Below, one piece after another: positions 6,201 through 34,023 of a DNA stretch of 34,023 bases. The position numbers and the translations under genes are program-made. The stretch spans positions 1-34,023 of the forward strand of contig JAGCXM010000024.1 in NCBI GenBank assembly GCA_017961325.1. The letters run 5' to 3'. Under the pieces are notes generated by a model that worked only from the letters and a program-made list of their open reading frames with translations, searched no databases and was not told where the DNA came from. The DNA comes from a bacterium. Its GTDB lineage: Bacteria; UBP6; UBA1177. Positions within the stretch are counted from its first letter, which is position 1; each line of letters starts with the position of its first letter.

Positions 6201-6350
6201 GACATTTTTAAACTCTTTTGAGAGGTTTTTCGCCAATCTGGTTGAACCACTGTCACCAGCTGCCGGAACAACCGCCATTTTAGGCTCGGCAACCAAAATA
6301 AGCGAGGATGCCAAAAGCATAAAAACAATAAGTAACGATTTTTTCAACAT
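3207..6350 (-). CDS. giant exported coiled-coil protein with N-terminal globular domain and C-terminal TPR-like repeats
   Basis: The product has 1047 residues. It starts with a signal peptide (LIVFMLLASSLILVAEP), then a globular domain to about residue 150 with a CGTKLVC cysteine pair. An acidic linker EDEIAEEEEAP, a short helical repeat region (about 175-265) and some 650 residues of Lys/Glu/Ala-rich heptad sequence follow. The last 110 residues resemble a tetratricopeptide pair (EARKYFFEALYISSDSKPAL). It is likely a long periplasmic or envelope fibre; the function is unknown. The ATG at 6350 is preferred over an upstream in-frame start because AGGAAGGTG lies 6 bases before it and a signal peptide follows directly. 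It is a clear paralogue, in architecture and end domains, of the protein at 10736-13882. It sits downstream of rodA, so a role in envelope shape is possible but unproven. Confidence 0.85.
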   Translation of the reverse strand: MLKKSLLIVFMLLASSLILVAEPKMAVVPAAGDSGSTRLAKNLSKEFKNVYDVVKNVTLSDINHAAAAKFKKCGTKLVCARKETKSYKKADFVLFPVIKTTDDGYSVTLHIFANNGKNVAKPVVNADSDVDPEDLASEVAAKLNEVTGDLSSEGGEDEIAEEEEAPKMTEREKREILRSAFKAYKAGKDKEAVALFKKSDNLAYADMTTEIVDAINEAKSLMKSGDSAGAAKALENVEKKDFELREKGAKELQFIKETNKKRKYNEPTSDDYARAKRTFKNVKKDMKNISVWRDGEMRKLEDAMSGKLDEQRVLNEKFEQNEEKQRKAEKKQDRELKKKIETLKDSIENLDATYRQKLDKTDREIESLNKQLEDERPAEEIYKKEIEDEIAAIEEKYKQGNKDRKKQLNQAKKQAKADIEAAEKEYETKLQALEKSNSDLEKQVKKLTDEVEKMESEFEAEEQKESEKFEKSVAAAEEQDAKDQEAAEKKAEEETEALNKKVEDFDAKLSSYSDKIDKIDGEISDFNDKQEEKISRNQESADKKREDAERKFESDRGAAEEKAESVYSKGQAERAKKVEKLESQMFEIQDKIEKYEKNPQWIRLNKERKAAEADLAKFEDGHDKFISKETASFEKKYKADLAKIDADQKAADADVKKEAAAFKAKKDSEKRTLTAEMKKIEQEKAALEKDMKKKQASINASKARKLKEIESRAAKREADRNAKARKRKAQYNKLSADKKKQLAALEKQLEAANANSDKAKDNLATQLENKKVAAEKKVSDLEQANENKKEANENAIEKEKQAVYAKYEKKAETDKKEINAKIAQLEKSSKTFVAQRGKEEAKLRANLEATENKVDSLQDIREKEAAKRRAVLEANLRAAEKREEAAKVKYEQAKNNIDNQYKAKVDALLKAKSVSSSVGREFKEERDRTFEYSAYTKQINSIKAESLAAQGMEQLKDENIAEARKYFFEALYISSDSKPALNGLKEIEKTAGAMYDRAYAEIQAGNASSANKILRKLKKELSPKSAYYLRVLALIEDAKEGGSDSED

Positions 6351-6373
6351 TTTTTTCACCTTCCTATTAGTAA

Positions 6374-6444
6374 ATAATACCAAAAAACATTCACATCCAA
6401 CAAAAAAACGCGCGAAAGTTTATTGAAAGACCTTCTTTTGTCAA
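6374..6444 (-). promoter_or_regulatory. candidate promoter(s) of the first coiled-coil gene
   Basis: The minus strand between the rodA stop and this gene holds -35 TTGACA (6439-6444) with -10 TAAACT (6417-6422) at 16 bases. A second -10 TATTAT (6374-6379) has TTGTTG at 18 bases. Either could serve; the first has the better -35 and leaves a leader of about 60 bases. Confidence 0.5.
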
Positions 6445-10671: not shown

Positions 10672-10735
10672 TTAGACGAAGATTTTTAGTTAGATGACGT
10701 GCTTTTTTGTTGAATGTTCTTAATTGGAGGAAATT

Positions 10736-13700
10736 TTGAGAAGTCTGAAAGTTGTTTTATCACTTTTTATCGTTTTTATGACCTTTATCGCGGCTGCTGC
10801 CCAGAGCGCAGCGGTATTTCCGATTGTCACGAAGGAAGACGACCGCCTGGCTGCGGAAGAAATCTATACTGCGGTAAAGGATGTTCTTGGAGAAATCAAG
10901 GGTGCCGAAGCGAAGGCATTCACAGACCTGATCGGCACGAAGGCTAAAAAAGAGCTTGCAAAATGCGGAGATCCGGCCTGCCAGAAGAAACTGGTTTCAA
11001 AGGCTAACAAAAAATCCGATTTCTACATTTTTTCAAAGATGAAATTAGTTAAGAACTCCGGAAAAACCATTATTGAGACTTATCTCTTCGACGGAAGCGG
11101 CAGCAGTCTTGACAAACAGAAAGTTGATTTTCCCAAAGGTGCTTCTGCTGAAAAAATAGCGGGCAAGCTTGCGAAAGTCTGGACGAAAATGCTCTCTTCG
11201 CAAAAAGCACAACCTGACGAAGAGGAAGAAGAGGAAGAACCCGTAAAACCCGAGAAACAGTTCAAACCTGCCAGCAAGGATACCGATGCAGCAATAAAAG
11301 CCGCTCTCTCCGCTTACGGCGAAGGTGATCTTAAAGGTGCCGAAAAGGCTCTGGATGATGCTGCGACGAAAGACGTTCAGGCGAAGGAACTTAAAGCAAA
11401 TATCGCTGAAATCGCAAAGTTCACCCAGCGCGCAAACGCCGCAATCAAGGCGAAGAACTATGACGAAGCCATTCCTATCATAGCAAAAGCGGAAAAACTT
11501 GACGCCGACATTCTTGAAATGGGTGCAAGTTCGAGATACCGCGTCTACAAAAAGGATTCCGTAGAAAGAGTCATCTATGCCGACCCGACCGAAAGGGATC
11601 TTCAGATCGTAGACACTGTTCATTCTAAATTTGAAAAACAGCGTGAAAAGCTGAGAAAAGAAAAAGCCAACGCTGTCAGCGAATCGGAATTATGGCTTAA
11701 CACGAGAATCCGCGAACGTGAAGAAAAGGTTAAAAAATACGACGAAGATTCCAAGGCCGCAAAACAGCTTAAAGATGCCGAATACGCCGAACTCACCAAA
11801 AAAATCAAGGAAATGAAATATCAGTGGGAAAAGGATGACAGCGAAATCGAGCAGAAAATCGTCGAAATAGAAAACAAACTTACACTTTACGAGCAGAGGG
11901 AAAAAGGCGTTGTCAAGGTTTCCAACGTCAACAGATACGAAAAAGAGATGGAAAAAGAGATGGCCGACACCGATAAAAAATACGGTGACATGCTCAAAAA
12001 GATGAGAACCGAAAAGGAAGACCGCTACAAAAAGCAGAACGACGAACTTGAAGCCGGCAACAAAAAGACGGAAGCCGAAGTTCTGAAACTCGAAGAGAAG
12101 AAAAAATCGAATGATGAAAAAATCGCCGAACTCGACAAGAAAATGACCGCCGAGCAGGAACAGTTCGATGAGAACGAAAAGAAGATCATGGCGAAAAACG
12201 AAGAAATCAAGATGAAGAACGAAGACGAAGACCGTAAATACAAAGTCGAAGTCGAAAAAGAGTATCAGGCGAAGTTCGACGAACTCAACAAAAAACTTCA
12301 GGATTACGATGCTCAGGAATCCGAAGAGCGCGAAAAACTGAAAAAATATGACGCGGCTACCGAAGAATATATGTTCAAAAACGCCGAAGTCATGCAGAAG
12401 TATCAGGAAGATATCGAAAAGGAACGTGCTGCAGCCGAAGCTGAATGTGCAAAGAACAAAGAGGCAGCTTTCGCAGATGCCGAAAAGGCTTTCACCGAAG
12501 AACTTGAAAAACTGAATAAGGAAAAAGCCGGCATCGAAGCGAAAATCGCCGAAAAAGAGACTCCTGCCCTTAAAAAACAGCTTGATGCAGCTGAAAAGAA
12601 AATCTCAAAACACGAAAGCGGAAAAGAAAATTTCGTCGTCAAGAAAATGGCTGCAGTCGAACAGGCATGCGAAAACAAGAGCATGGAAATCGACATGAAA
12701 CTCGCCAAGAAGAGCGACGAACTTAACAAGGACAACACGAAATATCAGAAAAACCAGCAGGCTGAAAAGAAAAAGGCTGAAGCGAACTTCAAGGCTTTCC
12801 AGCAGAGAAAGGACGCTTTCAGAAAGAATATCGACAGCCAGATTGCTCAGGCCCAGAAAGAGAGAGACCGCAAGATAGAAGCCCGCGAAAAAGAGCGCAG
12901 CAGACTGTCTGAAACATGGAATGCAGAAGCAGCGAAAAGGCAAAGAGACCTTGAAAACAAGCAGAGAACTGACAAAAACACGAAAGAGCGTCTCGTAAAA
13001 GACAACGAAAAGAACGACTCCCAGATTGCAATAATCAACGCAAAATGGGCTGACAAAAGCGACGACATCAAGATAAGAAATCAGGAAAGCAACCAGAAAT
13101 ACGAAAAAACCTGGCAGGAAAAATACGACAAGACCGAGACCGAATACAAGGAAAAGAAAGAAGAAATAGAAAACAGATACGCCGCTAAACAGGTTGCCGA
13201 CAAAGACGCCCAGAAAATGCAGAAGGAAAAATGGGAAGAGGAAGTTCAGAAACTGAACGACGAAAAACAGAAAAGAAAAGAGGAACGTCAGGCTATCCTT
13301 GCGGACGAACAGGCAAAATGGAAAGAAAAAACTGAAAAATGGGAGGAGGAGGAAGCTCGCAGAAAAGAGGAAAAAGAGCAGTTCTCCAAAGATCTGAAGA
13401 AACTTGCAGCTGAAGACAAGAAAGAGGCTCAGGCTAAAAAGAAAGAAGCCAATCAGAAATATGAAGAAGGGATGAAAGCAATCGACGAAAAGGAACTCGA
13501 ACAGGTAAAAGCTAAATTCAAACAGGAATACAAAGTCGCAAAATCGAGAGAAGTCGTTGATGTCAGAGCTTCGCAGAACATTTACAAAACCAAGGCTCAG
13601 GCTTATGCGCAGAGCGGACTTCAGAAGCTCAATGAAAAGGATCTCATCGGCGCACGCCGTTCGTTTGCGGAAGCTCTGAGAATCGACCGCGACAACCAGA

Positions 13701-13882
13701 TCGCCCTCAACGGCATGAATTCGATCAACGACACGGCAAAATCGATGTACTGGGAAGCTTACGGCAAGAGAGAAACGGACAAGGCAAAGGCTAGAGAGAT
13801 TTTCACCCTTCTCACCAAAACCCTGATGCCGTCTAACGAATTCTTCCTTAAAGCAAAAACCGCTCTCGAAGAACTTGAATAA
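10736..13882 (+). CDS. giant exported coiled-coil protein, paralogue of the 3207-6350 protein
   Basis: The product has 1048 residues. A signal peptide (VVLSLFIVFMTFIAAAAQS) is followed by a globular domain with a CGDPAC cysteine pair and the strand-like SDFYIFSKMKLV. A very acidic linker (DEEEEEEEP) follows, then helical repeats (about 180-270), about 660 residues of Lys/Glu-rich heptads, and a C-terminal TPR-like region (GARRSFAEALRIDRDNQIAL). Domain order, cysteine pair and end repeats match the other giant protein, although the coil sequence has diverged. The start is TTG at 10736 because GGAGG lies five bases before it; the in-frame TTG at 10724 would include that site. It is followed 11 bases later by the OsmC-like gene, probably cotranscribed. 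Function unknown. Confidence 0.85.
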   Translation: MRSLKVVLSLFIVFMTFIAAAAQSAAVFPIVTKEDDRLAAEEIYTAVKDVLGEIKGAEAKAFTDLIGTKAKKELAKCGDPACQKKLVSKANKKSDFYIFSKMKLVKNSGKTIIETYLFDGSGSSLDKQKVDFPKGASAEKIAGKLAKVWTKMLSSQKAQPDEEEEEEEPVKPEKQFKPASKDTDAAIKAALSAYGEGDLKGAEKALDDAATKDVQAKELKANIAEIAKFTQRANAAIKAKNYDEAIPIIAKAEKLDADILEMGASSRYRVYKKDSVERVIYADPTERDLQIVDTVHSKFEKQREKLRKEKANAVSESELWLNTRIREREEKVKKYDEDSKAAKQLKDAEYAELTKKIKEMKYQWEKDDSEIEQKIVEIENKLTLYEQREKGVVKVSNVNRYEKEMEKEMADTDKKYGDMLKKMRTEKEDRYKKQNDELEAGNKKTEAEVLKLEEKKKSNDEKIAELDKKMTAEQEQFDENEKKIMAKNEEIKMKNEDEDRKYKVEVEKEYQAKFDELNKKLQDYDAQESEEREKLKKYDAATEEYMFKNAEVMQKYQEDIEKERAAAEAECAKNKEAAFADAEKAFTEELEKLNKEKAGIEAKIAEKETPALKKQLDAAEKKISKHESGKENFVVKKMAAVEQACENKSMEIDMKLAKKSDELNKDNTKYQKNQQAEKKKAEANFKAFQQRKDAFRKNIDSQIAQAQKERDRKIEAREKERSRLSETWNAEAAKRQRDLENKQRTDKNTKERLVKDNEKNDSQIAIINAKWADKSDDIKIRNQESNQKYEKTWQEKYDKTETEYKEKKEEIENRYAAKQVADKDAQKMQKEKWEEEVQKLNDEKQKRKEERQAILADEQAKWKEKTEKWEEEEARRKEEKEQFSKDLKKLAAEDKKEAQAKKKEANQKYEEGMKAIDEKELEQVKAKFKQEYKVAKSREVVDVRASQNIYKTKAQAYAQSGLQKLNEKDLIGARRSFAEALRIDRDNQIALNGMNSINDTAKSMYWEAYGKRETDKAKAREIFTLLTKTLMPSNEFFLKAKTALEELE

Positions 13883-18835: not shown

Positions 18836-20410
18836 ATGAAAGATATTTTTTGTTCTTATTATACAAATTCAGATGAAATAACCTCATATATGGTTAATCG
18901 TCTTATGCTTTCAAACAATGATGTTGTTTTAGAACCTTCGGCAGGTGAAGGTATTTTTATTGACGAAATCTTAAAGAACGATATTCCTGTACAGATTGAT
19001 GCATTAGACATTGATAAAAAGGCTATTTCTACTCTTAAAAGAAAATATCAAGGAAACAGCTCAGTCACTGTCAGAGAAACCGACACTCTTCTTGATGAAC
19101 ATCTTGATGCTTTTGGCATTCCAGAAATATGGCTAAAAAAAACAGATACATTGGTGGATACCCAACTTGACTGTTTTGAAATTATTGGCGGTCATTACGA
19201 TAAAGTTATCGGGAATCCCCCCTACGGCGCTTGGCAGGATTACGAAAAAAGGGATTTGCTTAAAAAGAAGTATCCCGGACAATATGTGAAAGAAACTTAT
19301 TCATTATTTTTGCTTCGCTGTGTGTCCGTTCTTAAAACCGGTGGACGTTTATCTTTTATTATTCCTGATACTTATATGTTTTTAAATTTGCATTCAAAAT
19401 TAAGGAAACTGTTACTGACATCAACAAAAATAGAGGAAATAATAATATTCCCGTCAAAATTCTTCCCAGGTATAAGTTTCGGTTATTCCAATTTGTCAAT
19501 TATAACACTTGAAAGGACGGAAAAAGAAGTTGCTCTTGACAATACTATTAGAATTGTTAAGGGTTTTCGCTCTGTGACAGAATTCCAGTCGCTATGCCTT
19601 AAAGAAAAGTTACCCGCGCATTTGTCTACATATATGCTAAAACAATCAGATGTTTTAAATTGCGAGCAGCATAGGTTTATTCTTGCCGATACTAGTGTTA
19701 CTGACACAATAAATAAGGCCTCTACTTCCCTTGGAGATGTTGCAGATGTAGTAACGGGATTTTACACTGGAGACAATAAAAGATTTATTCGGGTGCTTGA
19801 CGATAATGTAAAAGGAAGTAAAGGGTATGATAAAATAGATCCGTCTTTGATATTTCCATGTACTTCTATTAGTGGAATTGAAGATGTTTCCGAAGGATAT
19901 GTTCCTTATGTTAAAAGTGCTTCAAGTAATCGATATTACAGGCCAAACGACGAATGGTTCGTTAGGTGGGACAAAGAATCAATAGATTTCTATAATGGTA
20001 ATAAAAAAACCCGTTTTCAAAATTCATCATTTTATTTTCACACTGGAGTAGCGATTCCTATGGTCAAATCAAGCAAAATAAGAGCTTTCTTGCTTGAAAA
20101 TCGTGTTTTTGACCAATCTATAGTTGGTATATTTCCTAAGGACTGTTCAAAACTTTATTATATTTTAGCCATTATGAACTCAGACATTATAAATAGTCTG
20201 ATTCACACTATTAATCCTACAGCTAATAATTCTGCAAACTATGTAAAGCAGATACCATATTTTGAACCATCACAAGAAATTATGGATGAAATTAGTGATA
20301 AAGTTAAAACAATCATTGACTATTATAGACAAGGCTCAATTTCTGACGGAGAAACCTTGCATCGTGAAATAAATATTTTTATCAAACAAATATATGATAA
20401 ATGTTTGTAG
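18836..20410 (+). CDS. type II N6-adenine DNA methyltransferase (gamma class, TaqI-like)
   Basis: The product has 524 residues and transfers a methyl group from SAM to adenine within a recognition site. Motif I is LEPSAGEGIF (about residue 32) and motif IV is NPPYG (about residue 126). The catalytic half is followed by a long C-terminal target-recognition region, the order typical of gamma-class enzymes such as M.TaqI. A stretch around residues 83-118 contains a near-duplicate (TDTLLDEHLDAF / TDTLVDTQLDCF), unusual for the family. The ATG has GGAGG seven bases upstream. It lies 60 bases after the endonuclease, same strand and same AT-rich composition, so the two form a restriction-modification unit. 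Its stop codon directly abuts the truncated RHS gene. Confidence 0.9.
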   Translation: MKDIFCSYYTNSDEITSYMVNRLMLSNNDVVLEPSAGEGIFIDEILKNDIPVQIDALDIDKKAISTLKRKYQGNSSVTVRETDTLLDEHLDAFGIPEIWLKKTDTLVDTQLDCFEIIGGHYDKVIGNPPYGAWQDYEKRDLLKKKYPGQYVKETYSLFLLRCVSVLKTGGRLSFIIPDTYMFLNLHSKLRKLLLTSTKIEEIIIFPSKFFPGISFGYSNLSIITLERTEKEVALDNTIRIVKGFRSVTEFQSLCLKEKLPAHLSTYMLKQSDVLNCEQHRFILADTSVTDTINKASTSLGDVADVVTGFYTGDNKRFIRVLDDNVKGSKGYDKIDPSLIFPCTSISGIEDVSEGYVPYVKSASSNRYYRPNDEWFVRWDKESIDFYNGNKKTRFQNSSFYFHTGVAIPMVKSSKIRAFLLENRVFDQSIVGIFPKDCSKLYYILAIMNSDIINSLIHTINPTANNSANYVKQIPYFEPSQEIMDEISDKVKTIIDYYRQGSISDGETLHREINIFIKQIYDKCL

Positions 20411-21248
20411 TTTTATACTAAATTCCACATTAAAAATCGCAACACTTTCAAAACAGACAACCGAATATGACAAAATCGGCCGCGCAGTCAGAAGCTGCCA
20501 GTTCGACGTTGCGCAGCCTTCAAACAAAAGGTGCATAGAGACTGAGCATGACGCATTTGGAAACATCGTGAAAAAAGAAGAAGCGGTTTATGATCAAAAC
20601 AATCAAAAACGAAATGATGTTCATGGCGAAACCCGTGAAATCACCTATGACCATAGAAACAGACCGCTGACAGTCACGGTTGACGGACTTAAGACCGAGG
20701 AATATTCATACAACAACGGTATTACGGGTGGTAATTATTTTGGTTACGACACAATCAAAAACAAATATAAGGATATCGTTCCACTCATAACCTACAAAGA
20801 CAAATGGGGCAGAGCCGCGAAAAGCGTTGATCCGTTCGGAAACGAGACGGAAACAACTTACGAAAGCAGCTATTCAGACAATATCACTTCACAAATTACG
20901 ACGACTTCATCAAGTGTAAAAACAGCTGAAACGACATGGACTTACGACGATCTGGACAGGAAATTAACAGAGACAAGAAAGCAGTTCATTCCCGGTTCGG
21001 AAAGTACGACAAATGTAAATCATGTGACCTACTGGGATTACGACAGCATCGGCAATGTCGTTTCAGTCGAATCGAGTGACGGCACGAAACAGACTTATTC
21101 CTACGACACCCTGAACAGGCCTGTAGAGACGGTAAATTATGAAAAAATCAATTCCGAAGATGTTAAACCTCGTCTTCCAAAAACTTCTACGACAACACAA
21201 CAGGCAGGCTTTTCCGCACGGAAACAACAAGAAACAGTCAGACTATAA
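20411..21248 (+). pseudogene. RHS/YD-repeat gene, 5'-truncated first fragment
   Basis: RHS-type YD-repeat sequence begins within about 15 bases of the methyltransferase stop, with no start codon or ribosome site, so the N-terminal part of the gene is missing. YD repeats are clear: TEYDKIGRAVRS, ETEHDAFGNIV, TWTYDDLDRKL, TYWDYDSIGNVVSVESSDG, QTYSYDTLNRPVETV. The frame runs into a stop at 21248. RHS sequence (FYDNTTGRLFRTETT, DYGFDTFGRVTAV) continues from about 21183 in the -1 frame, so a one-base deletion near the A-run at 21179-21183 separates this piece from the next. Intact RHS proteins form a hollow beta-barrel shell around a C-terminal toxin. This copy could only be expressed as a fragment. 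Confidence 0.8.
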
Positions 21249-21409
21249 CGGAAGACTACGGTTTCGACACTTTCGGGCGTGTCACAGCTGTCAGAACAAC
21301 CGATCCGGAAAATTCTTCACGTTACCGCGTCAAATTCTACAACACGGGAGGACAGGTCATCTGGGAAGCTGACGAGGAATCTGATGCCGATACCCGCGAC
21401 TACGGTGAC

Positions 21410-23674
21410 TTGGGCCTTTGGCATGTCGAAATCGGGAACCAGAAATATTACACCTACAATGCATTCGGCGATCTTGAAAAGACTGTTTACGTGATGACCA
21501 ACAGCGGCAGAGGACTCAGCTCTCCAGATCTCAATCCGTGGCTGAATGACAGTCAGATCACGACGAATTTCACTTATGATATTTTCGGCCGCATCACATC
21601 AAGGACAAACGACCGTTCGGGTGTTACGGAATACAGTTATTATGATAAAAACACTGGAACAAGCCACAGTCTCAACAAGCTAAAAAGCATTCAGATCTCT
21701 CCGGCACCTACAGACAATGATACAGGGTATCAGGATTCAGACAACAGCACTCAGACATACACTTACACCTATGATGACAAAGGCGATGAAGCGAGCGTTG
21801 AATACAAAGAGGCAAAAGCTAACGAGAAAGAAGAAGATTATTTAATGACTGTCAACTTCACCCGCGACGATTACGGCAGAATAATCAGCAAAACGTCTGA
21901 CGGCTCTGTTCCCGTAACGCAGACATTTACCTACAACATGAGGAACCTTCTTGAAACGGCGACAGACACAGTCGGCAACGCAGCCGCAACAAGTGTTACA
22001 AGGCTTTACGATTCCTTCGGCAATCCGTATTCGGAAGCGGTCACGGCAAACAATGTCACAAAAACCGTTTCCCGCCGGATGACAGATGCAAAAACCTATC
22101 AGTTCACCTATCCTGACGGCAAAACTCTCCGCAAAACTGCGACAGGAAACGATCTCGATTCAATCGAATACAACAATTCTGAAATCGCCGCATACAGCCG
22201 CGCAAACGGCGTTCTCACCGCAGTCACGAAAGGTCAGAACCTGACTGAAACCTTCAGCTACAACACTTGGAACCAGCTTGCAAACCACACGATAAGCAAT
22301 GCACCGAACAACGACATTTACAAGATGAACTACGGCTATTCCCGCGGCTGGCACTTAGTCGAAAAAGCGGACGGCATAAAGCATACTTCGGATAAGTACA
22401 CCTACGATTCATACTACCGCCTGAAAGAAGTCAAATACGATTTTGTCAACAATGCAGCGACCAGAACCGATAACTTTTATCAGGATGGCGTTCACAACAT
22501 CGAGCAGAGCACCGAAAACGGCGTAACCTACGCATGGGGCGTGGATAAACTCAATCGTTTGCGTGAAAAGGAAATCGGCGGAATTACTGCAGTCACATAC
22601 AAATATGACGAGCGGAACAACATGATAGGAGAAGACTTCGACGGAAGTGAACCCGCTGACATCAGCTACATTTACGACGACTTGAACCGCCTCATCGAAG
22701 TCAAAGACGGCAGCAATCAAACAATTGCAACTTACACCTACGACGCATTCAACCGCCGCATAACAAAAACCGTAGGAAACACGACAGAAAGATATTCCTA
22801 TGACGACTGGGACATTGTAGAAATCGCAACAAATTCAGGTAATTATGCAAACATCATCGATTCCGGCACTGACCGACACATTGCAATCGAAGTCACCTCA
22901 AACAACATCTCAACACTTTATTATTTCCTGACCGATGAACGCGGCAATGTGACGGCCCTCACCGATGCGAACGGCAACATCCTTGAACGCTACAGATACC
23001 GTGTTTACGGCGATTTTGAGATCCTTGATTCCCAGTTCACACCGAAAAACTGCAACAACCAGACCTGCTACGCAACCAACCTGCACAATTTCCTCTGGGG
23101 CGGCTCGCTCTATGAGCCCGAAACCAATCTCTACTGGATGCGCAACCGTTATTACCACATCGATATGCACCGCTTCATCAACCAAGACCCCATCGGTATC
23201 TGGGGAGATGCCAACAACTTGGGCAACGGTTTTGCTTATGTCGCAGGAATGGTCATCGAAGCGAGTGATCCGACGGGGTTAACAATAATGTATTTAAATA
23301 AAGAGAGTGAGAAGAATAATGATTCAGATTATCCATTTAAAGCATGCTCTCCAGAACAAAGAGCTCTAATCAAAGCGGTTGTAGATAATAATTCTGTAGC
23401 AGGAGAACTGTGGAATGAAGCAAACACTGATCCAGCTATAGTATATATTGGATGTGCTAATAATTCTGGTAGTTTTACAAAAAAATATGGAAAAGATTAT
23501 CGGATTAATATTGGTAATGAAGACCTGTCGTTGGTAGAAAGATTGGTTCATGAATTAACTCACCTTCTCAAGCATAAAAATATAATTAACGATAAAGACA
23601 TAAATTTATTAAAGAAAGAATTGGCAGAATTGGAAAAAGTTACAAAGGGAAAAGATAAAGAAAAAATAAAATAA
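21410..23674 (+). CDS. RHS core with C-terminal zincin metallopeptidase toxin 1 (displaced, frameshifted cassette)
   Basis: The 754 residues begin at a TTG, but the RHS frame is open from about 21183, so the start is arbitrary. About 600 residues are YD repeats, ending in the RHS-associated core (LYEPETNLYWMRNRYYH, DPIGIWGD) and DPTGL at 23267-23281. The variable domain follows: about 130 AT-rich-coded residues with HELTH, a zincin zinc site, so a peptidase toxin is likely. A TAA stops it at 23672-23674, but the same frame continues directly into the conserved tail at 23675. RHS toxins act on neighbouring cells after delivery and are neutralised by a downstream immunity protein, here probably the WG-repeat protein at 24213. 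The cassette core (22052-23281) is repeated twice more downstream. Confidence 0.8.
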   Translation: MGLWHVEIGNQKYYTYNAFGDLEKTVYVMTNSGRGLSSPDLNPWLNDSQITTNFTYDIFGRITSRTNDRSGVTEYSYYDKNTGTSHSLNKLKSIQISPAPTDNDTGYQDSDNSTQTYTYTYDDKGDEASVEYKEAKANEKEEDYLMTVNFTRDDYGRIISKTSDGSVPVTQTFTYNMRNLLETATDTVGNAAATSVTRLYDSFGNPYSEAVTANNVTKTVSRRMTDAKTYQFTYPDGKTLRKTATGNDLDSIEYNNSEIAAYSRANGVLTAVTKGQNLTETFSYNTWNQLANHTISNAPNNDIYKMNYGYSRGWHLVEKADGIKHTSDKYTYDSYYRLKEVKYDFVNNAATRTDNFYQDGVHNIEQSTENGVTYAWGVDKLNRLREKEIGGITAVTYKYDERNNMIGEDFDGSEPADISYIYDDLNRLIEVKDGSNQTIATYTYDAFNRRITKTVGNTTERYSYDDWDIVEIATNSGNYANIIDSGTDRHIAIEVTSNNISTLYYFLTDERGNVTALTDANGNILERYRYRVYGDFEILDSQFTPKNCNNQTCYATNLHNFLWGGSLYEPETNLYWMRNRYYHIDMHRFINQDPIGIWGDANNLGNGFAYVAGMVIEASDPTGLTIMYLNKESEKNNDSDYPFKACSPEQRALIKAVVDNNSVAGELWNEANTDPAIVYIGCANNSGSFTKKYGKDYRINIGNEDLSLVERLVHELTHLLKHKNIINDKDINLLKKELAELEKVTKGKDKEKIK
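22052..23281 (+). repeat. RHS core repeat, copy 1 (1230 bases)
   Basis: This is the stretch from VTKTVSRRMTDAKTYQF to DPTGL shared with 25530-26753 and 29096-30319. In this copy the RHS sequence continues upstream; in the other two it begins here. It is two codons longer than the others. Confidence 0.9.
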
Positions 23675-24199
23675 TTGAAAAAAAAGATAGCGGAACTTGA
23701 GCAGGAAGGAAAAAAAGCAGAAAAAGAAGCTGTGGAAAATCAAAATAAAGCAAAAGATGAAGAAGATGAAAAAAATAATGACGAGGAAAAGCAATATCCC
23801 AACGACCCAGATTCTTCAGAAGACAAAAATCAGTCATATTTTGCCAATCAGTTCATTAAAAAAATCCTTGAAATGCATGAAAAGAAAAATTTCTTTGAAA
23901 TTATGGATGAAGTTGGTCCTGTCATAAAATACAACGATGATGGAAGAAAAGTTTTTGTGTTTAACCCGTTCTACAGAGGTAAAGATCCAATGAAACAGAT
24001 ATTTTGGAATATACAGAATGCCGACGGAACAAATGGTTTTGTAAGAAACCCGTTCGCCCCAGGTGCTGAATATGGATATGATTCAACGACTCACGAAAAG
24101 TGGCAACAGTCTGGTTTTATTCAGCCGAATGTAGACCCTTATTCAAATTTGCAACAAAGTGGTTTTATACAAACAAATATTGATCCATATTTTAATTAG
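23675..24199 (+). CDS. conserved toxin tail 1, separated from toxin 1 by an in-frame stop
   Basis: The 174 residues continue in the same frame as the toxin after a single TAA. A charged coiled segment (KKKIAELEQEGKKAEKEAV) leads to the tail proper from about 23791: YPNDPDSSED, YFANQFIKKILEMHEKKN, VFVFNPFYRGKDPMK, ADGTNGFVRNPFAPGAEYG, then two units QQSGFIQPNVDPYSN and QQSGFIQTNIDPYFN. The same tail is fused in frame in cassettes 2 and 3, so this stop is probably a nonsense mutation. There is no ribosome site before the TTG at 23675. Stop read-through or reinitiation would be the only routes to product. The tail's role is unknown. Confidence 0.65.
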   Translation: MKKKIAELEQEGKKAEKEAVENQNKAKDEEDEKNNDEEKQYPNDPDSSEDKNQSYFANQFIKKILEMHEKKNFFEIMDEVGPVIKYNDDGRKVFVFNPFYRGKDPMKQIFWNIQNADGTNGFVRNPFAPGAEYGYDSTTHEKWQQSGFIQPNVDPYSNLQQSGFIQTNIDPYFN

Positions 24200-25508: not shown

Positions 25509-25511
25509 TTG

Positions 25512-27680
25512 ATGAAGGCAAATACAGGCAACATCGCTAAGACCGTTTCACGCAGGATGACCGACGCAAAAACATATCAGTTCACCTATCCTGACGGCAA
25601 AACTCTCCGCAAGACAGCAACCGGAAACGACCTCGATTCAATAGAATACAACAATTCCGAAATCGCTTCATACAGCCGCGCAAACGGCGTTTTGACAGCT
25701 GTCACAAAAGGTCAGAACCTCATCGAAACATTCAGCTACAACAACTGGAACATGCTTGACAATCACACTGTCAGCAACGCAAACGCCGATGTTTACGACA
25801 TGAGCTATAACTATTCACGCGGCTGGCACCTGATCGAAAAAGCGGACGGCATAAAGAACACATCGGATAAATACAGCTATGATTCCTATTACCGTCTGAA
25901 AGAAGTCAAATACGATTTTGCCAACAACACAGCTGCACGCACCGACTCATTCTATCAAGACGGAGTTCACAACATTGAGCAGAGCACCGAAAACGGCACG
26001 ACATTCGCATGGGGCGTAGACAAACTCAACAGACTGCGTGACAAGAAAGTCGGAAATAATACGGAAGTCGCCTACGGATATGACCAAAGAAACAATATGA
26101 TTTCCGAAGACAGAAGCGGAACAACCAACGACAGAACTTACATCTACGACGATCTGAACCGCCTCATTGAAGTCAAAGACGGCAGCCAAAATACGATCGC
26201 GGAATACACTTATGATGCATTCAACCGCCGCATAACAAAGACAGTCGGAAATACGACAGAAAGATATTCCTATGATGATTGGAATATTGTTGAAATCTCA
26301 ACAAATTCAAATAATTACACCAACATCATTGATTCCGGCACAGACAGACACATCGCGATCGAAGTCACCGCAAACAACACATCAACGCTTTACTATTTCC
26401 TGACCGATGAACGCGGTAATGTGACAGCACTCACCGATGCAAGCGGCAATGTTCTGGAGCGTTACAGATACCGTGTTTACGGCGATTTTGAGATCCTTGA
26501 TTCACAGTTCTCACCGAAAAACTGCAACAACCAGACCTGCTACGCAACAAATCTGCACAACTTCCTCTGGGGCGGTTCACTATATGAGCCAGAAACTAAT
26601 CTTTATTGGATGCGCAACCGTTATTATCACATTGATATGCACCGCTTCATCAATCAGGATCCCATCGGAATCTGGGGCGATGCCAACAACCTCGGCAACG
26701 GCTTCGCTTATGTAGCAGGAATGGTTATTGAAGCGAGTGACCCGAGTGGGTTGGAGTATACATCCGATGATACCCTTGGCAAATCGATACTTTCTACAGG
26801 TAACGAAACCTCATCTTTTTTCCAAACTTTAAATTCTAGCGGCACTGGAAATTTAGTTATTGTTGATGATGGTAAACTTCCACAAATAAAGGATGCAGAA
26901 GGGAAAAACAGATCTGCATCTGGGGCTTGTTTTATAGATAATAATATCTATATGGAAAAAAATGTGGCAGAAAAAGGACGCAATGTTGATAGACCTGGAA
27001 ATATTGGAATATTAATGGTATCGTATCATGTTTCTCCAGAAGCAATTATGGCGCATGAAATGGCGGAAAAAGCAGAATTAGAAAAGAGGCAAAAAGAACG
27101 AGCCGCAGAAAAGGCTGCTGGTAAAGGTGACGGAAAATTAACAAAAGAAGACTATGAGGCTGCGCATAAAAAGGGTATCGAAGCTGAAAAACAAGTAATG
27201 AAAGAGCAGGAAGAAAATAAAAATAGTCAAAAACAGGAAGAAGAAGAAAAAAAGAACAAAGGTGGAGAACAATATCCGAGCGATCCAGACAATTCAAACG
27301 ATTCTTTCCAACAAAAACTTATGGGAAGCATGTTAGCAAAAATATTACGAAACAATGATTTTTCCATCTATGAGCGAGGACCTGTTGTCAAAATCCAAGT
27401 AGAAACTGCGTCAGGTCATCCAAAATGGGTTTTTGTTTTCAATCCGTTCTACAGAGGTAAAGATCCATTGAAAGAAATGATTTGGAAAAAGCGAAAAGCC
27501 GATGGCTCAAAAGGTTTTGTTAGAAATCCGTTTGCACCTGGTGCTGAATATGGATATGATTCAACGACTCATGAAAAATGGCAGCAATCAGGTTTTATCC
27601 AGCCAAATGTAGACCCGTATTCAAATTTGCAACAGGGCGGTGGTTTTATTCAAACTAATGTCGATCCATACTGGCAGTAG
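25512..27680 (+). CDS. RHS core with zincin-like toxin 2 and conserved tail (orphan cassette)
   Basis: The 722 residues start three bases after the previous gene's stop, without a clear ribosome site, so translation would depend on coupling. The RHS core (25530-26753) begins at AKTVSRRMTDAKTYQF and ends DPSGL. The toxin region follows: AIMAHEMAEKAE then DYEAAHKKGIEAE, a HExxE pattern with a distal His and Glu that resembles zincin peptidase toxins. A charged coil leads to the tail (from about 27269): QYPSDPDNSND, VFVFNPFYRGKDPLK, NPFAPGAEYGYDSTT, and two units with QQSGFIQPNVDPYSN and GGGFIQTNVDPYWQ. It lacks the N-terminal RHS shell and the export region, so it looks like a displaced silent tip able to recombine with a full RHS gene. 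Confidence 0.8.
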   Translation: MKANTGNIAKTVSRRMTDAKTYQFTYPDGKTLRKTATGNDLDSIEYNNSEIASYSRANGVLTAVTKGQNLIETFSYNNWNMLDNHTVSNANADVYDMSYNYSRGWHLIEKADGIKNTSDKYSYDSYYRLKEVKYDFANNTAARTDSFYQDGVHNIEQSTENGTTFAWGVDKLNRLRDKKVGNNTEVAYGYDQRNNMISEDRSGTTNDRTYIYDDLNRLIEVKDGSQNTIAEYTYDAFNRRITKTVGNTTERYSYDDWNIVEISTNSNNYTNIIDSGTDRHIAIEVTANNTSTLYYFLTDERGNVTALTDASGNVLERYRYRVYGDFEILDSQFSPKNCNNQTCYATNLHNFLWGGSLYEPETNLYWMRNRYYHIDMHRFINQDPIGIWGDANNLGNGFAYVAGMVIEASDPSGLEYTSDDTLGKSILSTGNETSSFFQTLNSSGTGNLVIVDDGKLPQIKDAEGKNRSASGACFIDNNIYMEKNVAEKGRNVDRPGNIGILMVSYHVSPEAIMAHEMAEKAELEKRQKERAAEKAAGKGDGKLTKEDYEAAHKKGIEAEKQVMKEQEENKNSQKQEEEEKKNKGGEQYPSDPDNSNDSFQQKLMGSMLAKILRNNDFSIYERGPVVKIQVETASGHPKWVFVFNPFYRGKDPLKEMIWKKRKADGSKGFVRNPFAPGAEYGYDSTTHEKWQQSGFIQPNVDPYSNLQQGGGFIQTNVDPYWQ
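25530..26753 (+). repeat. RHS core repeat, copy 2 (1224 bases)
   Basis: It is homologous over its full length to copies 1 and 3. The 5' edge coincides with the start of the cassette, immediately after the WG-repeat gene. Confidence 0.9.
27269..27680 (+). repeat. conserved toxin-tail coding repeat, copy 2
   Basis: It codes for the tail from QYPSDPDNSND to NVDPYWQ. It is strongly similar to the tail at 23791-24199 and to that at 30742-31144 in the second half, less so in the first 45 residues. Confidence 0.8.
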
Positions 27681-29071: not shown

Positions 29072-31144
29072 ATGATAAAAGTTGAAGCCGATGGCAACGT
29101 CACAAAGACCGTTTCACGCAGGATGACCGATGCAAAAACCTATCAGTTCACCTATCCTGACGGCAAGACAGTCCGCAAGACAGCTACCGGAAATGACCTT
29201 GATTCCATCGAATATAACAATTCCGAAGTTGCTTCATACAGCCGCGCAAACGGAGTCCTCACCGCAATCACAAAAGGTCAGAACCTGATCGAAACATTCA
29301 GCTACAACAACTGGAACCTGCTTGACAATCACACTGTCAGCAATGCAAACGCCGATGTTTATGACATGAGCTACAACTATTCACGCGGCTGGCACTTGGT
29401 CGAAAAAGCTGACGGCATAAAGCAGACTTCGGATAAGTACACCTACGATTCATACTACCGCCTGAAAGAAGTCAAATACGACTTCGCGAACAACACGGCA
29501 GCGCGCACCGACTCATTCTTTCAAGACGGCGTTCACAACATCGAACAGAGCACCGAGAACGGCACGACATTCGCATGGGGCGTTGACAAACTCAACAGAC
29601 TGCGTGAAAAGAAAGTCGGTTCAAACACCGATGCCGCATACGAATACGACGAGCGAAACAATATGATTTCCGAGGACAGAAGCGGAACAACCAACGACAA
29701 AACCTATATCTACGACGATTTGAACCGCCTCATTGAAGTCAAGGACGGCAGTAATCAAACAATTGCAGCTTACACTTATGACGCATTCAACCGCCGCATA
29801 ACGAAAACCGTCGGAAACACGACAGAAAGATACACTTACGACGATTGGAATATCGTTGAAATCTCAACAAATTCAAACCTTTATACAAACATCATCGATT
29901 CCGGCACAGACAGGCACATTGCAATTGAAGTCACCGCAAACAACACATCAACACTTTACTATTTCCTCACCGACGAGCGCGGAAATGTGACGGCCCTCAC
30001 CGATGCGAACGGCAACATCCTTGAACGCTACAGATACCGTGTTTACGGCGATTTTGAGATCCTTGATTCACAGTTCATCCAGAAAAACTGCAGCAACCAG
30101 ACCTGCTACGCAACGAACCAGCACAACTTCCTCTGGGGCGGCTCACTCTACGAGCCAGAAACCAATCTCTACTGGATGCGCAACCGTTATTACCACATCG
30201 ACATGCACCGCTTCATCAATCAAGACCCAATCGGCATTTGGGGAGATGCCAACAACCTCGGCAACGGCTTCGCTTATGTTGCAGGCATGGTCATTGAAGC
30301 AAGTGACCCGACGGGATTGGACGTACTTCTTTCTTCACCAAAAAAAATGCTCATGGATAAAACATATCAATACAGTATAGAACGAGGAGACACAAAAGAA
30401 GTTGCAACTATAAAATCTGAAATTACTGGTAATTTGGCATCTATGCGTACAGATGCTCCTGATAATATCTTAGATTTTGCAACAACAGCATCGGAGATGT
30501 TTGATCTAATTCAAGGATTGAAAACTGAAGATTCATATACTACAAAATGGGAAATATGGGAAAAAGATAAAGATATATATTTTTGGGAAACAAATAATAA
30601 TGAAGTACTATGGTCAACTAAATATACCAACACTCAAACAGGCGAAACAAAATATGAGTTTGCTGATGGAACAATAATATCTGTTTCAAAACAAGGCGAG
30701 ATCTCCTGTTCTGGACCTTCTTGTGGAGATTTAGGATTTCTTCATCCTTCAGAACCCGATTCAACAGATAGTGTTCAAACATATTTTGCGAATCAGTTCA
30801 TCAAAAAAATATTGGGAATGCACGAAAAGAAGAATTTTCTTGAAATGATGAGTGAAGAAGGACCTGTTATCAAATATGATGACAACGGAAGAAAAGTCTT
30901 TATCTTTAACCCTTATTACAAAGGTAAAGACCCTATGAAAGAAATTTTCTGGGGCACTAAAAATGCCGACGGAACAAATGGTTTTGTCAGAAATTATTTT
31001 GCACCGGGAGCTGAATACGGGCAGGATTCAACAACTTACGAAAAGTGGCAGCAGTCAGGATTTCCACAAACAAACGTTGATCCCTACGTGCAAATTCAGC
31101 AATCCGGATTCATACAAACGAATGTTGATCCGTATTTTGATTAG
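29072..31144 (+). CDS. RHS core with unrecognised toxin 3 and conserved tail (orphan cassette)
   Basis: The 690 residues begin with a short new leader (MIKVEADGN), then the RHS core from VTKTVSRRMTDAKTYQF (29096) to DPTGL (30319). No ribosome site is evident. The variable domain of about 140 residues (30320-30741) contains KWEIWEKDKDIYFWE, LWSTKYTNTQTGETKYEF and SCSGPSCGDLG. I recognise no family and see no HExxH or other catalytic motif. The tail follows: HPSEPDSTDS, YFANQFIKKILGMHEKKN, VFIFNPYYKGKDPMK, and two units QQSGFPQTNVDPYVQ and QQSGFIQTNVDPYFD. Here toxin and tail are fused without a stop. The likely immunity gene starts nine bases downstream. Confidence 0.78.
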   Translation: MIKVEADGNVTKTVSRRMTDAKTYQFTYPDGKTVRKTATGNDLDSIEYNNSEVASYSRANGVLTAITKGQNLIETFSYNNWNLLDNHTVSNANADVYDMSYNYSRGWHLVEKADGIKQTSDKYTYDSYYRLKEVKYDFANNTAARTDSFFQDGVHNIEQSTENGTTFAWGVDKLNRLREKKVGSNTDAAYEYDERNNMISEDRSGTTNDKTYIYDDLNRLIEVKDGSNQTIAAYTYDAFNRRITKTVGNTTERYTYDDWNIVEISTNSNLYTNIIDSGTDRHIAIEVTANNTSTLYYFLTDERGNVTALTDANGNILERYRYRVYGDFEILDSQFIQKNCSNQTCYATNQHNFLWGGSLYEPETNLYWMRNRYYHIDMHRFINQDPIGIWGDANNLGNGFAYVAGMVIEASDPTGLDVLLSSPKKMLMDKTYQYSIERGDTKEVATIKSEITGNLASMRTDAPDNILDFATTASEMFDLIQGLKTEDSYTTKWEIWEKDKDIYFWETNNNEVLWSTKYTNTQTGETKYEFADGTIISVSKQGEISCSGPSCGDLGFLHPSEPDSTDSVQTYFANQFIKKILGMHEKKNFLEMMSEEGPVIKYDDNGRKVFIFNPYYKGKDPMKEIFWGTKNADGTNGFVRNYFAPGAEYGQDSTTYEKWQQSGFPQTNVDPYVQIQQSGFIQTNVDPYFD
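29096..30319 (+). repeat. RHS core repeat, copy 3 (1224 bases)
   Basis: It has the same length as copy 2 and the same 5' edge. By eye it shares with copy 1 some segments not found in copy 2, for instance KDGSNQTIA and ASPTGL-side codons, so the copies look like mosaics. Confidence 0.85.
30742..31144 (+). repeat. conserved toxin-tail coding repeat, copy 3
   Basis: It runs from HPSEPDSTDS to NVDPYFD. It shares YFANQFIKKIL and MHEKKNF with copy 1, which copy 2 lacks. Confidence 0.8.
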
Positions 31145-31153
31145 GGGGCAGAC

Positions 31154-32803
31154 ATGATAAAAATTATTAAAAATGCTACATCCAATATTCTTATTGTTTT
31201 TGTTGCTGAATTTTTGGCATTAATCCTTTTGGCCGGTTTGGTATATGTAAATATTCTTTCTCCGAGTGAATTCCGAAAATATAATGTATTTTACATGTCA
31301 GGGATTTATTTTTTTACCGGTCTCTTTTTGATTAGAAAGAAATTACCTTTTAATGACATAAAAAGATACCTTGTCTTTTTATGTTCCTTTGTGGCAGGTC
31401 ATCTTACGAATATTTTGATTTTTAAAGAGAAATTCAACTTAAAAACTGTGTCGCTGCTTGTTTTCTTTGCTTTTTGCGGACTTGTCGGAATTTTTATCAG
31501 AGAAAAATCATTTCCTGCAAAAAAATATGCGGTAACGGTTCTTATTCTGATTTCCTCGCTTTTGGTTTTAACTCCGCTACTTCCTTTGTTGCAAAATGTG
31601 CGGCATGAAAAAACTCTTATTGAATACATAAAAAATGACGAAACAGAAAAGGTAAAAGCCGCAATAGAAAAAGGGGCTGATGTAAACCAGACTGACGAAA
31701 CAGGGGCTACCCCGGCAATGTGGGCAGCGTACAGCGGTAATATTGAACTTCTTGATTTGTTGGTGAAAAACGGTGCCGATGCAAATCACAGTGGAATTTT
31801 GAATGTAAATTCAGAAAGATTTGGTACAGTATACACCAATGCAATTAATGCAGCTGCCGGAGAAGGACAGCTCAATGCTCTCAAATATCTGATTGAAAAA
31901 GCCGATGTCTCCGCGAACACGATCGGAAGAGGAATAAGAGATTTTTTCTTGTCAGAAGAGGATATTTCAAATCCTGACGGTTTATGCAGATTCATGCAGA
32001 ATTCTGACGATCCGATTTCAAAAAATATTCGAAGAAATAATTCTCTTTCATCGTTAGGTTGCGACAATGGTAAGCTTACAGATAAAAATCGCCCGTTTTT
32101 CCGCAGTGCGATTGCTGTTCTTTTTTCTGAAATGATAAAGTCAGTAGTTATAGAAAAAACGAATAATCTCACAAAAGTTTCTGTTAGCAACATAATAGAT
32201 GTTGCCAACAACAGGTTTTTTGTAGATAAAATTTATGGTAATTACATAAAGACATTAAAGAATTATAAGTTTTTTGACGGGAACAAAAAAGGAGTTACAC
32301 CTTTAATGGAAGCTGTCTTAACCGGCAAAAAAGAGGTCGTGGTTTATCTTCTAGAAAAAAATGCGGATCCGAATTTTCAGAGCGAATACGGTATGACGGC
32401 TCTTCATAAAGCGTTATTCAACATGCGCTATGATATCGCGAAAATCCTTCTTGAAAACGGAGCAAAAGCCGATTTGTATGCTGAAGGAACAAACGGTTTC
32501 AGAGTTTATCCAAGTTTGGAAATCGTTCCCAAAGATTGCAAACCATCAAAAACAGAACAGACGGATTTTAATAGGCAAATTATAGAAATTGTTACTCTGA
32601 TGTTCAAGGCTGGAGCAAAAGCTGAGCAGTTTTCTCCGACGGTAATTGAATTGTGCCGATGCAAAAACCAGGAATTAGTTGCATTTTTGATTTCATACGG
32701 TGTCGATTCTGATTTCAAATTTGATGACGGACGGACTTTGAAAGAAATATGCGCGGAGCATGGTATCGAGATCAAAGATGAGTGGCTTAAGAAGAAAGAA
32801 TAA
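31154..32803 (+). CDS. membrane protein with ankyrin repeats, candidate immunity protein for toxin 3
   Basis: The product has 549 residues. About five transmembrane helices occupy residues 7-145 (for example FLALILLAGLVYVNIL and LILISSLLVLTPLLPLL). Ankyrin repeats follow: two near 155-220 (VKAAIEKGADVNQTDETG, LLDLLVKNGADANHSG) and further copies near 380-440 (GVTPLMEAVLTGKKEVVVYL, GMTALHKALFNMRYDIAKIL). GGGGG lies five bases before the ATG. It starts nine bases after the tail of cassette 3. Ankyrin proteins are known as immunity partners in polymorphic toxin systems. A fused inner-membrane domain suggests protection at the membrane, but this is inference. The frame continues after the stop with a 15-codon ankyrin-like remnant. 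Confidence 0.72.
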   Translation: MIKIIKNATSNILIVFVAEFLALILLAGLVYVNILSPSEFRKYNVFYMSGIYFFTGLFLIRKKLPFNDIKRYLVFLCSFVAGHLTNILIFKEKFNLKTVSLLVFFAFCGLVGIFIREKSFPAKKYAVTVLILISSLLVLTPLLPLLQNVRHEKTLIEYIKNDETEKVKAAIEKGADVNQTDETGATPAMWAAYSGNIELLDLLVKNGADANHSGILNVNSERFGTVYTNAINAAAGEGQLNALKYLIEKADVSANTIGRGIRDFFLSEEDISNPDGLCRFMQNSDDPISKNIRRNNSLSSLGCDNGKLTDKNRPFFRSAIAVLFSEMIKSVVIEKTNNLTKVSVSNIIDVANNRFFVDKIYGNYIKTLKNYKFFDGNKKGVTPLMEAVLTGKKEVVVYLLEKNADPNFQSEYGMTALHKALFNMRYDIAKILLENGAKADLYAEGTNGFRVYPSLEIVPKDCKPSKTEQTDFNRQIIEIVTLMFKAGAKAEQFSPTVIELCRCKNQELVAFLISYGVDSDFKFDDGRTLKEICAEHGIEIKDEWLKKKE

Positions 32804-32851
32804 TGTCAGGAATTGATTGAAATGCTAGTTGAAAATGGAGCTGTTGAATGA
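32804..32851 (+). pseudogene. remnant of an ankyrin-repeat gene 3' end
   Basis: Directly after the TAA of the ankyrin gene, in the same frame, 15 codons read CQELIEMLVENGAVE and end in TGA. This is typical ankyrin C-terminal sequence. It may be the end of a lost second ankyrin gene or the former end of the present one. Its TGA overlaps the ATG of the next tail fragment (ATGA). Confidence 0.5.
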
Positions 32852-33105
32852 AAATCTGCCGTAATTCATATTATGTGAACAAAGATCCTTTGAAAGCAAT
32901 CTTTTTTGATGGTAACGATGGCACGGGTAAACCCATGATTTATAGGAATCCTTTTGTTCCAACAAATGCTGAATACGGTTACGATTCAACAACTTACGAA
33001 AAGTGGCAAAAATCAGGTTTTCCACAAACAAATGTTGATCCATATTCAAATCTTCAACAGGGTGGTAGTTTTATCCAAACAAATGTAGACCCATATTTTG
33101 AATAA
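32848..33105 (+). CDS. orphan tail fragment 4 (no RHS core, no toxin)
   Basis: The 85 residues start MKICRNSYYVNKDPLK and continue as tail: NPFVPTNAEYGYDSTTYEKW, then two units KSGFPQTNVDPYSN and GSFIQTNVDPYFE. It corresponds only to the tail part after the YRGKDP position; the upstream tail, toxin and RHS core are absent. Start and preceding stop overlap as ATGA. No ribosome site is seen. It may be a deletion remnant or a recombination landing module. The next gene starts 14 bases downstream, as in complete cassettes. Confidence 0.6.
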   Translation: MKICRNSYYVNKDPLKAIFFDGNDGTGKPMIYRNPFVPTNAEYGYDSTTYEKWQKSGFPQTNVDPYSNLQQGGSFIQTNVDPYFE

Positions 33106-33119
33106 TAAGGGAGAAGAGA

Positions 33120-33737
33120 ATGAACGTTTTGAACAGAAGCGGAGCTATTGTTGTCTTTGAAATATGCTTTATGATTTCTTGTTTATTAAGGTCTTATGCA
33201 GGACTCTCCCTAATAACACATGATTTCCCATCGTTGCCGACATTGTTTCTGCTTTGTGAATATTTCAGATTTTACAAAAAGAATGACTGGTATGTTTATA
33301 AGTTTTACCCAGTTGATTTTTTTGACAGAAATGCACATGTTGTAATTGTTGTGTTGGACGCGGTTATCCTTGCAGGATTAAGGTCGTTCCTATGGATTGC
33401 AATATATTGCATGGCAGCAATCTTGAACGAATTGTTAATGAGAAAATATTACAAATATCGGATAAAAAAGGATCAATTGGTAAAAGAATTATTGGGACAA
33501 CAGGATTACGATGGAGAAAAAATTGTTCTTAAAACAATAAATAAAAATTTTTTCGTTAGGAACACTCCCTTTTTTCTGGTTTTGGTTTTTCTATGGTTTG
33601 CATTAGTGATGACTCATCAAGCGAAATTCTATTTTTTATCGATGATAGCGATTATTGTTTTCGCAATATATGAAGAATTTGTGCACAGAAAAAGAATAAA
33701 AAAAGAAATCGAAAAAATCTTGGAAAACATTGAATGA
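33120..33737 (+). CDS. small multi-pass membrane protein, candidate orphan immunity protein
   Basis: The product has 205 residues with about five hydrophobic helices (for example AIVVFEICFMISCLL, VVIVVLDAVILAGL, FFLVLVFLWFALVMT, FLSMIAIIVFAIYEEF) and a Lys/Glu-rich C-terminus. I do not recognise a family. It occupies the immunity position behind tail fragment 4 (GGGAG before the ATG), but its toxin is missing. Keeping an orphan immunity gene is common in polymorphic toxin loci because it still protects from kin carrying the toxin; this role is inferred. Confidence 0.65.
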   Translation: MNVLNRSGAIVVFEICFMISCLLRSYAGLSLITHDFPSLPTLFLLCEYFRFYKKNDWYVYKFYPVDFFDRNAHVVIVVLDAVILAGLRSFLWIAIYCMAAILNELLMRKYYKYRIKKDQLVKELLGQQDYDGEKIVLKTINKNFFVRNTPFFLVLVFLWFALVMTHQAKFYFLSMIAIIVFAIYEEFVHRKRIKKEIEKILENIE

Positions 33738-33859
33738 ATAGAGGCAAAGACCCTTTAAAAGAACTTTTTTGGAAAAAGCAAAAAGCCGATGGGAGGTTAA
33801 GTCAAGTTCTTTCTGTAAAATCCGAGCCTCCATTTCAGCAACGCTCTCCTAATTCGTAA
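33734..33859 (+). pseudogene. tail fragment 5, cut by the IS end
   Basis: The ATG overlaps the stop of the membrane protein (ATGA). The first 20 codons read MNRGKDPLKELFWKKQKADG, matching the tail from the RGKDP position on. From about 33793 the sequence is the end of an insertion element and the frame closes at 33859. As with fragment 4, the copy begins directly at the stop of the preceding gene. Confidence 0.6.
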
Positions 33860-34023
33860 AAGTCACATATTTTTTACCGGTTAGCCATTCTTCATCCATT
33901 TCAATGAGCAATGCTCCTACAAGTCTGGCGACTGAAGCCTCGTTCGGAAAAATGCTCACGACATCGGTTCTGCGGCGCAGTTCCCTGTTGATCCGCTCTA
34001 TATGGTTTGATGTCGATAATTTG
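33793..34023 (-). mobile_element. IS256 (Mutator) family insertion sequence, one end
   Basis: The junction where tail homology stops (33791-33794) is followed by AGGTTAAGTCAAGTTCTTTC, a plausible terminal inverted repeat. The 3' end of an IS256-type transposase follows on the minus strand. The other end lies outside the window, so target duplication and terminal repeat cannot be verified. Confidence 0.7.
33849..34023 (-). CDS. IS256 family transposase, C-terminal end (5' part outside window)
   Basis: The minus strand reads about 57 residues ending at a TAG (33849-33851). They include SNHIERINRELRRRTDVV, IFPNEASVARLVGALLIEMD and EEWLTGKKYVTF. These are the characteristic C-terminal motifs of IS256/Mutator DDE transposases (NRELRRRT and FPN followed by LVGALL). 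The catalytic residues lie in the part beyond the right edge. Nothing in the visible part is broken. Confidence 0.9.
   Translation of the reverse strand, partial: KLSTSNHIERINRELRRRTDVVSIFPNEASVARLVGALLIEMDEEWLTGKKYVTFTN

Follow-up and report, generated by a model that had tools for sequence, protein, structure and literature searches.

Organisation of the RHS locus

The window, that is the whole stretch of DNA analysed here, is an entire contig of 34,023 nt (G000:C4) whose source genome has relatives among rumen UBP6/UBA1177-type and 'Spirochaetales' MAGs. It contains three RHS fragments, each ending in a conserved tail that is followed by a candidate immunity gene, with two short stubs of the tail (fragments 4 and 5) further downstream (Table 1). 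RHS/YD repeats and an Rhs-associated core (PF05593 and TIGR03696 matches) are followed by a variable C-terminal domain, which starts after DP[TS]GL in the RHS toxins, and the locus is probably best explained as an RHS polymorphic-toxin array of a rumen UBP6/UBA1177-type bacterium. The Rhs-associated core ends of these three fragments are the only three in genome G000, and, as the first RHS copy is split and the other two are displaced fragments, the genome shows no RHS toxin that is intact over its full length. By Pfam, two of the candidate immunity genes behind the RHS fragments encode WG repeats and one encodes ankyrin repeats; the protein encoded after fragment 4 has no match in Pfam or NCBIfam. 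The two longer RHS fragments have a toxin domain and an immunity gene, while fragments 4 and 5, like most other stubs, are without a toxin domain.

Table 1. Features of the array in the window (positions in nt)
Feature	Position	Strand	Basis
Tail copy 1, end of broken RHS toxin fragment	23930..24199	+	tail HMM
Candidate immunity gene, WG repeats, 431 aa	24213..25508	+	Pfam PF14903
Displaced RHS fragment, toxin domain and tail copy 2 (tail ~27417-27680)	25509..27680	+	
Candidate immunity gene, WG repeats, 446 aa, cluster C0	27692..29032	+	
Displaced RHS fragment, toxin domain and tail copy 3 (tail ~30875-31144)	29072..31144	+	
Candidate immunity gene, cluster C3, ankyrin repeats plus hydrophobic segments at the N-terminus, 549 aa	31154..32803	+	
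3'-end remnant of second ankyrin gene (..ELIEMLVENGAVE*)	32804..32851	+	read from sequence; also in G007
Fragment 4, subtype-B stub of the tail, HMM position 8 onwards	32848..33105	+	
Candidate orphan immunity gene, membrane-protein-like, 205 aa, cluster C35	33120..33737	+	
Fragment 5, subtype-A stub of the tail, HMM position 16 onwards, IS-truncated	33734..33794	+	
Multicopy insertion sequence, left end, transposase C-terminus; contig ends inside	33795..34023	-	

Several further features of the locus were recorded. The first RHS copy (20394-24199) is split into three ORFs (20394-21248, 21410-23674 and 23675-24199) and lies directly behind an Eco57I-type methylase gene. Within the RHS core, KTVSRRMTDAK is the start of both long RHS fragments (25509 and 29072); G004 has the 29072 join as well (L058, ~14060), again with the same left WG gene. 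HExxH-like motifs (GHELGH, HELTHFL, AHEMAE) occur in the toxin domains of window copies 1-2 and of L053, L063, L066, L072 and L076, which suggests that several of these domains may be metallopeptidase toxins; domains with such motifs often precede WG-repeat proteins. Two ORFs of ~1050 aa (3207-6383 on the minus strand and 10724-13882 on the plus strand) have no Pfam match. A second, isolated piece of array lies in the same genome at G000:C43 ~223,870-228,411 (L023), downstream of a long ORF, and consists of a 3' tail stub from HMM position 54 and an ankyrin-type candidate immunity gene. Its contig, too, breaks off within the insertion sequence that is present at 33795 in the window.

Tail stubs and their junctions

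The tail was found in 20 of the 41 genomes searched, from which 34 regions were collected and each tail copy tabulated with its left and right gene. A profile HMM of the tail was built from ~100 copies, and the flanking genes, with mechanical gene calls between tails, were clustered at 50% identity (C numbers); most or all of the genomes are MAGs, and the independence of junctions was judged by eye. Around half of the ~100 tail copies in the relatives (~50) are short stubs between genes, nearly all of them in 14 genomes of the same genus. In the toxin genes the order is RHS core, variable toxin domain and conserved tail (~70-120 aa), with the immunity gene usually starting 9-14 nt after the tail. 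The tail has no match in Pfam or NCBIfam, and AlphaFold2 gave no confident fold for the tail alone (33 sequences, mean pLDDT 50, pTM 0.24).

Fragments 4 and 5 are genuine 3' stubs of this RHS-toxin tail, and both short ORFs lie where an earlier note on this DNA had placed them, as does the candidate immunity gene after fragment 4. Fragment 4 (85 aa, from the ATG at 32848) opens with MKICRNSYYVNKDPLKAIFF.. of the subtype-B tail, and its sequence MKICRNSYYVNKDP aligns with [M/K]IYRNPYYVNKDP of that subtype, which is marked by KICRNSYYVNKDP where the other subtype has RGKDP. Fragment 5 opens with MNRGKDPLKELFWKKQKADG.. of the subtype-A tail and has ~20 tail codons before it is broken. The ATGA overlap with a preceding stop that the note had described is present at both, at 33734-33737 for fragment 5 (with the preceding TGA) and at 32848-32851 for fragment 4 (stop at 32849-32851, exact base ±1); at fragment 4, however, the overlapped gene is a ~45-nt 3' remnant of a different ankyrin gene, and not the 549-aa ankyrin gene, which has already stopped at 32803.

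What does not hold is the proposal that both fragments begin at (Y)RGKDP and so reveal a second common breakpoint. Their cuts lie 8 codons apart in two different tail subtypes, that of fragment 4 being upstream, and only fragment 5 starts at RGKDP. The two junctions therefore go back to different deletions at different positions, the outcome that the note itself had named as refuting its proposal; a common cut at RGKDP was rejected, and no conserved crossover or cleavage sequence is seen there. Across the related genomes stub starts spread over HMM positions 1-61.

The start of a stub instead goes with the family of its left gene. Family C1 keeps one join in G001, G007 and G010, followed by three different right genes, and C6, C11 and C19 each retain a stub join of their own; in same-left stub pairs the right genes always differ where both can be assigned. 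C3, the ankyrin gene of the window, likewise has different right genes in the window and in G007. Its junction with fragment 4 (549 aa in the window, 548 aa in the relative) recurs in contig G007:C11, including the ankyrin remnant, within a tract of 96% identity that ends at ~32894 inside fragment 4, beyond which G007 leads to a different right gene. For the junction of fragment 5 no second copy was found in the related genomes: G012 has an 84% homologue of the left gene, which continues into a WG gene through an ATGA overlap, without a tail, and G005 holds only the 3' end of the left gene. On its right, fragment 5 is truncated at ~33795 by a multicopy insertion sequence that looks like Mutator/IS256 type, other genomic copies of which begin matching at the same base; because of this element and the contig end at 34023, its right neighbour is not visible.

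The identity of the downstream genes was considered through their toxins. Toxin domains are homologous across genomes within the downstream families C1, C3, C4 and C18, so that toxin domain and immunity family co-vary, and members of families C0, C2, C3, C4, C10, C15 and C16 follow full toxins in some places and stubs in others. Orphan immunity candidates have, by a criterion of the Kirchberger type, a cognate toxin in related genomes. Pairing is imperfect, the toxin domains of C0 and C15 in G002, G007 and G009 being related to each other. Read from sequence, these patterns support the downstream genes as probable retained orphan immunity genes, whose products would presumably neutralise the toxins.

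Probable exchange of immunity genes by crossovers in the tails

Exchange in the tails was tested by comparing tail copies in pairs. Tail pairs with the same left gene are alike in their 5' block (0.726 versus 0.605 with shuffled labels, p 0.0005) but not significantly so in their 3' block (p 0.09), and the contrast between the blocks has p 0.003. Tails that share a right gene resemble each other more in the 3' block (p<0.0005), and in the 5' block too; this half of the comparison shows linkage only, since whole tails travelling with full toxins predict both blocks to be alike.

High-identity tracts between species (at least 95% identity over at least 250 nt, covering an immunity gene) have ends in tails 3 times more often than expected, with 23 of 65 ends there against 7.4 expected by random placement and a maximum of 17 in 2000 placements. 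The remaining ends lie inside immunity genes (28/65) or elsewhere (14/65), so tails are not the sole crossover sites. Raw BLAST match ends over all sequence had been dropped as they were dominated by RHS-core fragments, and the analysis was redone on the immunity-gene tracts.

Three tracts have both ends in or beside tails and enclose only one or two immunity genes. The cleanest is that of C19 (G003 versus G013), in which every 30-nt window across the 504-nt gene has an identity of 0.97-1.00. Identity falls to 0.6-0.9 in the tails on either side, where the tract ends, and the sequence beyond them is unrelated (~0.5); thrS is 88% identical between the two genomes. For C12+C6 and C7+C5, identity drops already near the start of the first gene. 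In a further case, C1 together with the start of its stub is 99-100% identical over 300 nt in G001, G007 and G010, and the tracts fall to 62-71% inside the stub; thrS is 79% identical between G001 and G007/G010. Crossovers lie 9-71 nt past the left stop and 15-98 nt ahead of the right start, varying positions that fit homologous recombination and not a fixed site. A separate match of 3.4 kb, 100% identical between the distant genomes G001 and G005 (L052 368-3758 and L061 477-3867; thrS 75%), begins in a tail and reflects either recent transfer or misbinning. Assembly switching or misbinning of MAGs at identical genes could fake single junctions, and despite such possible artefacts the junction pattern recurs in independent data sets.

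We propose, with a probability of roughly three in four, that displaced toxins leave behind a tail and an immunity gene, and that the tail then acts as a homology arm through which immunity genes are exchanged by themselves. On the displacement or deletion of a toxin, its immunity gene would be kept together with a 3' stub of the toxin tail, and fragments 4 and 5 would be two such stubs, from different joins. Because the tail repeat sits between toxin and immunity gene, every immunity gene of the array is flanked by tail sequence. Ordinary homologous recombination between tails, probably of RecA type, could then bring in, replace or rearrange immunity genes independently of their toxins, and do so across species as well. 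A new toxin-immunity module would enter by a pair of crossovers, one of them within the RHS core and the other joining its trailing stub to the resident tail, replacing the toxin while the resident immunity gene stays, and two crossovers in tails would swap single immunity genes. The left end of a stub would accordingly be an old illegitimate join inherited with the left immunity gene, and its right part would derive from the recipient's neighbour. Retention of the immunity genes would presumably be selected for protection. The earlier suggestion that the exchangeable unit is a short one, other than the long RHS cassettes, is supported in another form: the unit is not a tail plus immunity gene cut at RGKDP, and the data support an immunity gene preceded by the 3' part of a tail and trailed by the 5' part of a stub, with crossovers at varying sites in the tail.

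Among other explanations, the stubs could be functional translational bridges or small peptides, with a frame that starts on the stop of the left gene and passes ribosomes between immunity genes. At ~10 of 23 distinct junctions in the genus the stub start and the left stop share 4 nt (ATGA/GTGA) or 1 nt (TAATG/TAGTG), against 12-19% of simulated random joins; the excess is moderate (p ~0.001-0.01 depending on the null) and may reflect selection for translational coupling. Nearly all stubs are also open in the tail frame, and the closest stub pairs have a dN/dS of ~0.06, the same as full-length tails. Overlaps of 4 and 1 nt are, however, common in operons, and synonymous divergence is 0.58 within 14 codons of the join compared to 0.20 in the adjacent gene. 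Since recombination refreshes the stub DNA, the low dN/dS is not interpretable as selection on stubs, and as proof of a peptide function it was rejected as confounded. A bridging role is compatible with exchange through the tails, and we regard it as possible without favouring it. More tentative still is the combined view that tails are kept as recombination arms, that immunity genes are recombinase-free interspecies cassettes and that stubs double as bridges in one long immunity operon.

Plain decay, in which stubs are mere scars of successive illegitimate deletions that removed toxins and tails have no further role in recombination, would account for stub starts being scattered along the tail and for the different positions of fragments 4 and 5, and Kirchberger et al. 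invoke homology-facilitated illegitimate recombination for Vibrio arrays (PMC5361080). Decay alone does not give the same left junction followed by different right genes, as seen in several families, and it is partly refuted by the enrichment of tract ends in tails and by the C19 tract; we consider it improbable as a full account, while it does account for the first origin of each stub, which in the exchange model would itself need an illegitimate join as proposed for Vibrio (PMC5361080). Least probable by far is a precise site, with a fixed tail sequence cut by a recombinase or nuclease in the manner of integrons or rAID arrays: fragments 4 and 5 do start near KDP codons, some stubs cluster at HMM positions 2-4 and 11-13, and several left genes join tails at AACGGAGC, but this sequence codes for NGA in both ankyrin repeats and tails, so that short shared homology explains the joins, stub starts and crossover distances are variable, RGKDP opens fragment 5 only, and a Pfam scan of 18 window proteins revealed no recombinase.

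Relation to known immunity arrays

The closest precedent is the orphan CDI modules, which are bounded by VENN, a short stretch of conserved coding sequence. Poole et al. (2011) described orphan cdiA-CT/cdiI and rhs-CT/rhsI modules, near-identical between strains, in which toxin-gene fragments and immunity genes stand in tandem behind toxin loci, as they do here (PMC3150448). Those modules have the repeat 5' of the toxin domain and carry toxin and immunity gene (PMC3150448), whereas here the tail repeat is 3' of the toxin domain and the unit between repeats carries the immunity gene alone. The two longer RHS fragments of the window do match the Poole-type make-up of toxin domain plus immunity gene, and fragments 4 and 5 do not. 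The placement of the repeat behind the toxin domain, giving immunity-only units, is the new element.

Other systems share some of these features. In the T6SS of Vibrio cholerae, effectors are replaced and old immunity genes kept (Kirchberger et al., 2017); 3' effector pieces can remain, the arrays are mosaic and an integrase is unneeded, as in the present locus, but breakpoints are unconfined and insertion is proposed to be illegitimate (PMC5361080), while here it is the repeated coding tail that offers homology on the 3' side, and it holds an excess of tract ends. The rAID arrays of Bacteroidales are likewise co-oriented orphan immunity genes with recurring sequence between them, and have a tyrosine recombinase and intergenic motifs (described in PMC12247911); in our array what recurs is the 3' end of the toxin's coding sequence, and none of the 18 window proteins scanned with Pfam is a linked tyrosine recombinase. 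Integrons have an intI integrase, and their cassettes have fixed boundaries with attC sites; the boundaries of the present units are not fixed. Polyimmunity loci (Zhang et al., 2012) are rows of immunity genes downstream of toxins that have been interpreted as what toxin replacement left behind, and are described as never interrupted by toxin genes or cassettes (PMC3482391); here, in contrast, a toxin-tail stub precedes the orphans.

Poole et al. asked why bacteria that collect immunity genes retain toxin fragments, and noted that the old immunity gene would be lost if recombination took place at a repeat 5' of the toxin domain (PMC3150448). With a repeat 3' of the toxin domain that loss would be avoided: replacing the toxin would leave the old immunity gene where it is, and immunity genes could move by themselves. 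If our reading holds, such arrays are marked by the tail family, which has no entry in Pfam or NCBIfam. The leftovers of toxin tails across these related rumen bacteria are, on the sequence comparisons made here, probably sites at which immunity genes are swapped between species, which, if true, would provide a simple integrase-free route to broad orphan immunity in gut communities.
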